Below are positions 7,788-62,035 of a stretch of DNA of 64,000 bases, in pieces (within the stretch, counting starts at the first letter, position 1; every line of letters begins with the position of its first letter). Source of the stretch: Halobacterium wangiae (lineage in GTDB: Archaea; Halobacteriota; Halobacteria; Halobacteriales; Halobacteriaceae); the NCBI RefSeq assembly GCF_021249345.1, contig NZ_CP089588.1:930001-994000 (forward strand), given 5' to 3'. A model generated the notes under the pieces. The model was given only the letters and a program-made list of their open reading frames with translations. It was not told the origin of the DNA and did not search any database. The position numbers and the translations under genes were made by a program.

Positions 7788-8091
7788 AGGGCGTCGTTGT
7801 CGCGTCTCGCGCTTGAATGCTTTCGTTCCGTGTTTCTGTGTGACGTGGTACGCTCGTTGGGTTCGCGGCGGGTTCCTACACCTCGAAAGCCTCGAGGCTA
7901 AGGACGAAGACGGACGAAGTAAGCACCACAGCGAGCACCGCGAGCGAGGAGCGTGGTCCGAGAGAACGAAGCTCTCTCGTCATCTCGAAAGAGCGCTCTG
8001 CGCTCTTTCGGCGACAACGAGGCCGGGGGGTGAGACGCCTGGGCTTTCGAGGTCCTGTCGAATACGGTAGTGAGGAACAGGGAACCCGAAC
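7788..8091. other. 304-bp gene-free region containing a structured repeat
   Basis: I see no credible gene between the acetyltransferase stop and the hisS start. Short frames here have no start signal or family resemblance. Apart from the hisS promoter (about 7811-7817), most of the region is the inverted-repeat element annotated at 7880-8053. Confidence 0.6.
7880..8053. repeat. Multi-hairpin intergenic element with 12-bp inverted ends
   Basis: The ends are a perfect 12-bp inverted repeat: ACCTCGAAAGCC at 7880-7891 and GGCTTTCGAGGT at 8042-8053. Inside are two more perfect hairpins: CGAGAGA/TCTCTCG (7960-7966, 7974-7980), and CGAAAGAGCG/CGCTCTTTCG (7986-7995, 8001-8010) with loop CTCTG. It also has GAAGTAAGCACC, shared with the element at 24950-25056, and its right end GGCTTTCGAGGT is shared with the element at 25100-25197. 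It is probably a divergent relative of those elements. No coding capacity is seen. Confidence 0.6.
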
Positions 8092-24859: not shown

Positions 24860-24949
24860 ACGCGGGGATTAGGGGGTCTGTCACTTAGCGAGTGCGGTTC
24901 CGGTGTCGGTGTCGTTCACGGGAGGAGTCGAGTCTGTGGGCTCTTCCCC

Positions 24950-25056
24950 GAAAGCCCCCGGCCGCTCGTGGGCCCGGGGCTCGCTGTGCTCCTCGCTCCC
25001 GCCGGTCGCTGCGGTGCTTACTTCGCCCGGGACCCGCCGACCGTCCGGCCCCTTTC
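24950..25056 (-). repeat. GAAAGGGGC/GGGGCTTTC structured element, copy 1 (inverted)
   Basis: Read on the minus strand, it begins GAAAGGGGC (25056 down to 25048) and ends GGGGCTTTC (24958 down to 24950). The end pairs GAAAG/CTTTC enclose a 4x4 internal loop, then a 10-bp stem (24959-24968 with 25038-25047) with 8 pairs. The centre carries GACCGGCGGGAG (24996-25007) and GAAGTAAGCACCGC. It forms a large palindrome with copy 2. Confidence 0.65.
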
Positions 25057-25099
25057 AGACCTCCCGTCGACCGGTTGGTCAACCGACTCGGGCGGGACT

Positions 25100-25197
25100 G
25101 AAAGGGGCGGCCAGCTACGGGAAGCACGCCGACGCAAGCACGCGACCAGCGGGAGCGCGCACAGCGAGGCGCGCGACCGTAGCTGGCCGGGGCTTTC
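25100..25197 (+). repeat. GAAAGGGGC/GGGGCTTTC structured element, copy 2
   Basis: GAAAG (25100-25104) pairs with CTTTC (25193-25197). GGGC (25105-25108) and GGGG (25189-25192) form a 4x4 internal loop. A perfect 12-bp stem follows, GGCCAGCTACGG at 25109-25120 with CCGTAGCTGGCC at 25177-25188. GACCAGCGGGAG is at 25144-25155. The stem differs from those of copies 1 and 3, but base pairing is kept. Confidence 0.7.
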
Positions 25198-25297
25198 GAG
25201 GTGTACGGCTCGGTACCACCAGCGGGGAATTCCACTAAAGGCGGGGGTTCCCGTCGGTACGGAAACCACTATCAGTGACGACGGCGCAGTACGACGC

Positions 25298-61785: not shown

Positions 61786-61862
61786 ACCACCAGCGAGGGC
61801 GCCGCCGGACAAGAAACCGGGGGCCGGTATCGGCGTCCGCCACAGTCGGTAGTGGGCGGACC

Positions 61863-61975
61863 GAAAGGGGCGGCACGCTCGCGTTCATCTGGTCACCTCG
61901 CGCCGCTAGCACCGCAACGACCAACGGGAGTGAGGCGCGCAGCAAGCGAGCGACCGCGAGCGTGCCGGGGCTTTC
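61863..61975 (+). repeat. GAAAGGGGC/GGGGCTTTC structured element, copy 3
   Basis: GAAAG (61863-61867) pairs with CTTTC (61971-61975). The 4x4 loop GGGC/GGGG is identical to copy 2. A perfect 12-bp stem, GGCACGCTCGCG (61872-61883) with CGCGAGCGTGCC (61955-61966), differs from copy 2 at five positions, each compensated on the other arm. GACCAACGGGAG is at 61919-61930. The copy lies between the divergent SnoaL-like and Tsr3 genes; the rest of that 279-bp spacer holds only promoter boxes. Confidence 0.7.
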
Positions 61976-62035
61976 TACGCAGCTGTAGCGCCAGAGTGGG
62001 CTGAACCGCGAAACGTCCTCCAGTCGAGCGGGGTG

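Follow-up and report, generated by a model that had tools for sequence, protein, structure and literature searches.

The hairpins described here form a real, class-wide family of covarying elements, most likely of mobile DNA that is read in single-stranded form. Three copies lie in the 64,000-nt stretch of the Halobacterium wangiae genome that we analyzed (hereafter the window), at the positions where a preliminary description had placed them, and a covariance model recovered all three: 25090-25207(+) with E = 8e-24 for a copy that belonged to the training set of the model, and 24940-25066(-) and 61853-61985(+) with E = 2e-14 each. A fourth copy, fused and degenerate, was also found. Covariation usually counts as the hallmark of a functional RNA, whereas here an equally strong signal comes from dispersed DNA repeats that turn over and are poor in wobble pairs, which bears on the reading of covariation screens in archaea. 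The features in the window are the following:

25100..25197, + strand: right hairpin of a dyad (sequence, covariance model, alignment and folding)
25100-25104/25193-25197, + strand: stem P1 of this hairpin
25105-25107/25190-25192, + strand: GGG/GGG loop of this hairpin
25108-25120/25177-25189, + strand: stem P2 of this hairpin, paired at 13/13 positions
25121-25123, + strand: tandem G.A plus bulge of this hairpin
25131-25137, + strand: 7-nt loop strand GACGCAA of this hairpin
25090..25099, + strand: 5' flank of this hairpin, GGGCGGGACT; family consensus GGGTGGGACT (conservation across about 113 copies)
25198..25206, + strand: 3' flank or outer end, GAGGTGTAC at this copy; genus form GAGGTGT, Haloarcula form TGGCTGTTC
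25057..25099, unstranded: palindromic center of the dyad, AGACCTCCCG...CGGGCGGGACT
24950..25056, - strand: left hairpin of the dyad, head to head with the right one, with an imperfect stem (covariance model)
61863..61975, + strand: solo hairpin, P2 paired at 13/13 positions (covariance model)
7884..8049, unstranded: fused and degenerate fourth copy (weak covariance-model match at 7905-7964, E 0.09; sequence; ORFs)

The alignment of 56 copies gave one fixed plan for hairpins that measure about 98-115 nt. From the outside inward, P1 (GAAAG/CTTTC, the paired ends already noticed in the preliminary description) is followed by a GGG/GGG loop, by a 13-bp P2 stem whose sequence is almost free, by a tandem G.A plus a bulged A, by P3 (2 + 4 bp interrupted by a C.C mismatch), by a conserved 7x7 loop GACGCAA/GCAGCGA, and by P4, which contains an A mismatch (GCACC/GGAGC, GGACC/GGACC or GTAAC/GTAAC), beyond which lies a variable tip. 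No evidential weight attaches to P1, to the GGG loops or to the opening pair of P2, all of which the search pattern prescribed. Pairing was seen in 98.2% of the cells, a value inflated by the choice of copies with at least 10 of 13 P2 pairs, against 72.0 ± 0.8% in shuffled controls. Double changes occupied 373 cells (120 ± 8 when shuffled), the covariation score reached 0.618 (0.146 when shuffled), and sliding the partner strand by one to three columns lowered pairing to 46% or less. Compensation of stem changes is thus well beyond chance, and these controls support the earlier suggestion that selection acts on structure over sequence.

The choice of aligned copies does not affect the bimodality of the unfiltered matches: 103 of 144 distinct matches pair at 11-13 of the 13 stem positions and 30 at seven or fewer, the latter being mostly stem-less chance matches. 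Bacterial matches of the pattern scan are among them and look like chance as well. Both flanks are conserved (GGGTGGGACT on the 5' side and TGGCTGTTC on the 3' side), the 5' flank reaching 1.4-1.9 bits at most positions in about 113 copies. In all copies, one strand contains four G tracts in the 5' flank and the loops (GGGTGGG, GGG, GGG), a candidate G-quadruplex with the hairpin as its loop.

Within the window, GAAAGGGGC occurs four times (0.44 expected), and GAAAGGGGC-N68-98-GGGGCTTTC occurs 13 times in the whole genome against none for the reversed control. Five differences between the stems at 25100 and 61863 had been described as compensated, and they are genuine (CGGCCAGCTACGG/CCGTAGCTGGCCG vs CGGCACGCTCGCG/CGCGAGCGTGCCG). 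These two stems pair perfectly, as had been said, but over 13/13 rather than 12/12 positions, and the stem at 24950 is indeed imperfect. The internal loop was drawn as 4x4; a loop it is, but 3x3 (GGG/GGG) suits it better, with the fourth position assigned to the C-G pair at the start of the 13-bp stem. Folding of single copies was clearly significant for the 25100 hairpin only (RNA z -7.9, DNA z -4.6) and weak for the others, so that the case rests on comparison.

The basic unit of the family is a dyad, that is, two hairpins of about 100 nt arranged head to head around a palindromic center and bounded by short inverted outer ends. Drawn as one strand, the dyad is a cloverleaf. The copies at 24950 and 25100, both real, are therefore not independent neighbors, but the two halves of one dyad with a 43-bp center. 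They are among the eight of 13 exact-end copies in this genome that make up four head-to-head pairs with a spacing of 42-43 bp, and the pattern scan of named genomes found the same element, with such pairs, in many genera of Halobacteria. Solo hairpins are often dyads minus one hairpin; a partner of the 3' flank was sought upstream of solos and none was found. Outer inverted repeats beyond the ends of about 9 nt (e.g., CTTCGGCGA/TCGCCGAAG at the Haloarcula site L266) did not rise above a mismatched-flank control. The degenerate copy at 7884-8049, flanked by hisS and a gene for a GNAT acetyltransferase, keeps both outer ends (ACACCTC-GAAAGCC ... GGGCTTTC-GAGGT) around an extended core that contains two additional hairpins.

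In some copies the inner core is a different one or is inverted, and the interior of the element is therefore modular. One alternative core, GGTCGTCTGA...CCCCTATC...GATATGTC...CAGCGACC, sits in the same P1/P2 frame in seven loci (L043, L049, L094, L096, L097, L101 and L125), and the copy at 61863 is a hybrid that joins an alternative P2/P3 junction to the common AGCACCGCA core.

The family is widespread. The covariance model (R1) found 32 copies in the genome of the window, from 0 (G007) to 53 (G011) in congeners, with 43 in G001, and elsewhere up to 98 (Haloarcula rara), with 95 in Halonotius roseus. At E <= 1e-6, at least one copy was present in 93 of the 116 sampled Halobacteria genomes (about 80%) and in 38 of 46 genera. 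Copies also occur on haloarchaeal plasmids. No copy was found in the phage records and viral contigs searched, and we rejected a phage origin on this ground.

Comparison of orthologous sites showed patchy presence, hairpin exchange at a fixed site and, repeatedly, alleles without the hairpin that are cut at its base. The dyad near 25 kb is absent from most congeners; among them only G001 has one, with its hairpins rearranged. Stem sequences reappear at unrelated loci, and at the orthologs of Haloarcula sites relatives have either no copy or a changed one. A near relative retains the outer ends at L266, for instance, but its left hairpin differs and the right one is missing. Between H. japonica and G081, with flanks 92% and 86% identical, the hairpin is present in one (...GGGTGGGACT-hairpin-TTCTGGCTGTTC...) and absent from the other (...GGGTGGGACTTTCTGGCTGTTC..., with the junction GGGTGGGACT|TTCTGGCTGT). 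Such hairpin-less junctions recur in several kinds and are best explained by deletions between short repeats that remove a hairpin at its base. Dyads outside IS6 MITEs showed no clean target-site duplication.

Hairpin loss at the base would also be expected of selfish palindromes in which template-switch repair, and not selection on the fold, maintains the complementarity of the arms. In line with such repair, double changes prevail already among the most similar stems (35 vs 24 at one difference). Nevertheless, the GGG/GGG, G.A, C.C and 7x7 loops stay unpaired in copies throughout the class, while correction of this sort would erase them, and the strand bias described below also speaks against an explanation that we hold to be improbable.

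Both units in the window are intergenic and lie between divergent genes, with 89-103 bp separating their ends from the start codons. Together with the inverted symmetry of the dyad, this location would suit a double-stranded or cruciform protein-binding site serving regulation or chromosome organization. On the other hand, positions vary between relatives, the orientation of surrounding genes is mixed according to crude gene calls, and a symmetric duplex would not be expected to show strand bias, what makes a site of this kind quite unlikely in our view. The same mixed orientations, from the same crude calls, led us to reject any tight rule of gene context. In many copies, the window units included, a codirectional start codon follows about 80-125 bp downstream of the end, as far as crude gene calls can tell.

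The nature of the mismatches in P2 is informative about the molecule that folds. In 192 distinct P2 arm pairs, G.T accounted for 66 of 2496 cells, A.C for 19 and other mismatches for 55, so that wobbles represent 47% of all non-Watson-Crick cells. In the SRP RNA of the same genus, G.U accounted for 154 of 1300 cells, A.C for 6 and others for 7 (wobbles 92% of non-Watson-Crick cells). Wobble pairs are thus 4-5 times rarer in P2, although the SRP structure was derived with RNAalifold, which favors wobbles. The excess of G.T over A.C (66:19, p = 3e-7) is a one-strand bias and indicates that one strand matters, although a mutational bias is a possible source. A single-stranded DNA hairpin fits both the few wobbles and the strand bias, whereas an RNA fits the bias better than the rarity of wobbles. 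The fold therefore probably acts in single-stranded form, more likely as DNA than as RNA. The preliminary description had left the choice open between RNA and cruciform DNA; the evidence now leans to the single-stranded DNA of a mobile element.

A multicopy structured noncoding RNA, transcribed outward from each half of the dyad, spread with mobile DNA and bound by protein through its conserved loops, is a less probable alternative. The preference for G.T over A.C on one strand, the conserved internal loops that are nested and combined with covarying stems, the cores that can be swapped, and the high stability of the RNA fold at 25100 are what such an RNA would display. Against it stand the scarcity of wobbles relative to SRP RNA (with the above caution about RNAalifold), the distance of just about 42 bp between the halves of a dyad, the lack of an Rfam relative, and the absence of a conserved promoter, as no AT-rich promoter signal was found at a fixed distance upstream of copies. 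If the copies are transcribed, they would be among the more abundant structured RNA families of the class.

On balance, we lean toward the view that these haloarchaeal elements are a family of short mobile DNA, non-autonomous, whose hairpin would be read by its fold in single-stranded DNA. Recognition may occur, for example, on the replication template. Because the fold would be what is recognized, P2 would be free to drift as long as it still pairs, and the GGG/GGG, G.A and 7x7 loops would be the parts that are read. Movement of the copies may depend in part on carriage by MITEs and in part on a further enzyme or on gene conversion between copies.

Some lineages carry the element in IS6-type MITEs. 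In G011 and in Halonotius the element is found inside such MITEs with perfect 8-bp target duplications, copies in a MAG have TIR-like ends of the same kind, and the IS6 transposase genes of those lineages bear the same ends as the MITEs. However, neither the genome of the window (G000, 32 copies) nor G001 (43 copies) has an IS6 transposase, and the former also lacks the IS6 TIR. IS6 was thus rejected as the general mover and is one carrier among others. Likewise, the high-copy genomes G086, G087, G090, G027 and G097 (from 28 to at least 30 copies each) have no PF01797 Y1 transposase, which excludes a Y1/RAYT dependence. No dedicated transposase or other enzyme was found for the element, and both IS6 and Y1 transposases are dispensable.

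In integron attC sites, structure is kept while the stem sequence varies, and the site is read as a single strand. The hairpins share with them the conserved structure and the variable stem, but no gene cassettes were seen around the intergenic copies. We entertain, tentatively, the bolder idea of a class-wide archaeal mobile element recognized by single-stranded DNA shape alone, with a free stem and a putative structure-reading enzyme of its own. Such an element might, by analogy and with no great probability, be an archaeal counterpart of attC sites that follows the same logic without common descent. A shape-reading enzyme, should one exist, would represent a new archaeal recombination system.

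As the preliminary description had supposed, the hairpins correspond to no named family: they have no sequence membership in any of those tested. No Rfam 15 family scored above its gathering threshold (the best chance match had 20.5 bits against a threshold of 53.7), and neither the RNA-family database nor the searched literature holds a description of them. The nearest description is that of SMR-A from Haloquadratum walsbyi, repeats of about 110 bp with inverted terminal repeats and up to 54 copies, without an autonomous transposase, of enigmatic mobilization and switched at identical positions (PMC3119063). The hairpins resemble SMR-A in their length of about 110 bp, inverted ends, multiple copies, lack of an autonomous transposase and exchange at a fixed site. 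Nevertheless, SMR-A sit in near-terminal palindromes of IS605/PATE, whereas these hairpins occupy dyads of their own or IS6 MITEs, or occur singly, and the SMR-like sequences that we recovered start with TAGTGATTC or TAGTACTCC and lack this hairpin structure. As for the absence of target duplication in the manner of SMR-A, the hairpin-less alleles found here show several junctions, which we read as deletions.

R1 gave 0 matches in 952 kb of a genome with a 3,148,033-bp chromosome, in which SMR-like repeats are present and which we take to be that of H. walsbyi strain C23. Since no structure is shared either, identity with SMR-A (HqIRS42/43/55) was rejected; this is a new family that resembles short mobile repeats without homology to them.

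Some copies are like IS6-family MITEs of haloarchaea in being located inside MITEs with GGYAGTGTTCAGATAAG ends and 8-bp TSDs. The hairpin is cargo in such MITEs, however, and an IS6 TIR with an 8-bp TSD was not found in the genome of the window. Head-to-head imperfect palindromes, a conserved 5' tag and solos as remnants recall the REPIN/BIME elements associated with RAYT (PMC3116915), but the present hairpins are 3-5 times longer, their stems differ freely and many-copy genomes lack Y1 transposases.

A few loci present additional arrangements. A second conserved haloarchaeal module, GCGAGGGATGAGCGA...GAATCGGCTGGGGAGGCGTGTGGC, lies upstream of some solo hairpins (L016, L029, L036, L044, L050, L103 and L120), and after the dyad at L259 its right end (GCTAGCGGGGCTTTCTGGCCGTACACTGCAGCATTC) recurs in tandem. 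Two further loci, L212 (positions 891313-891486 of the genome of the window) and L217, have an extended core made up of two adjacent hairpins around GTCAT/GTGAT. This core resembles an H. walsbyi repeat (L370-L412 concatenate, 440850 and 495169), which at 440850 lies just past the 3' end of an apparent tnpB, in a possible omega-RNA region.
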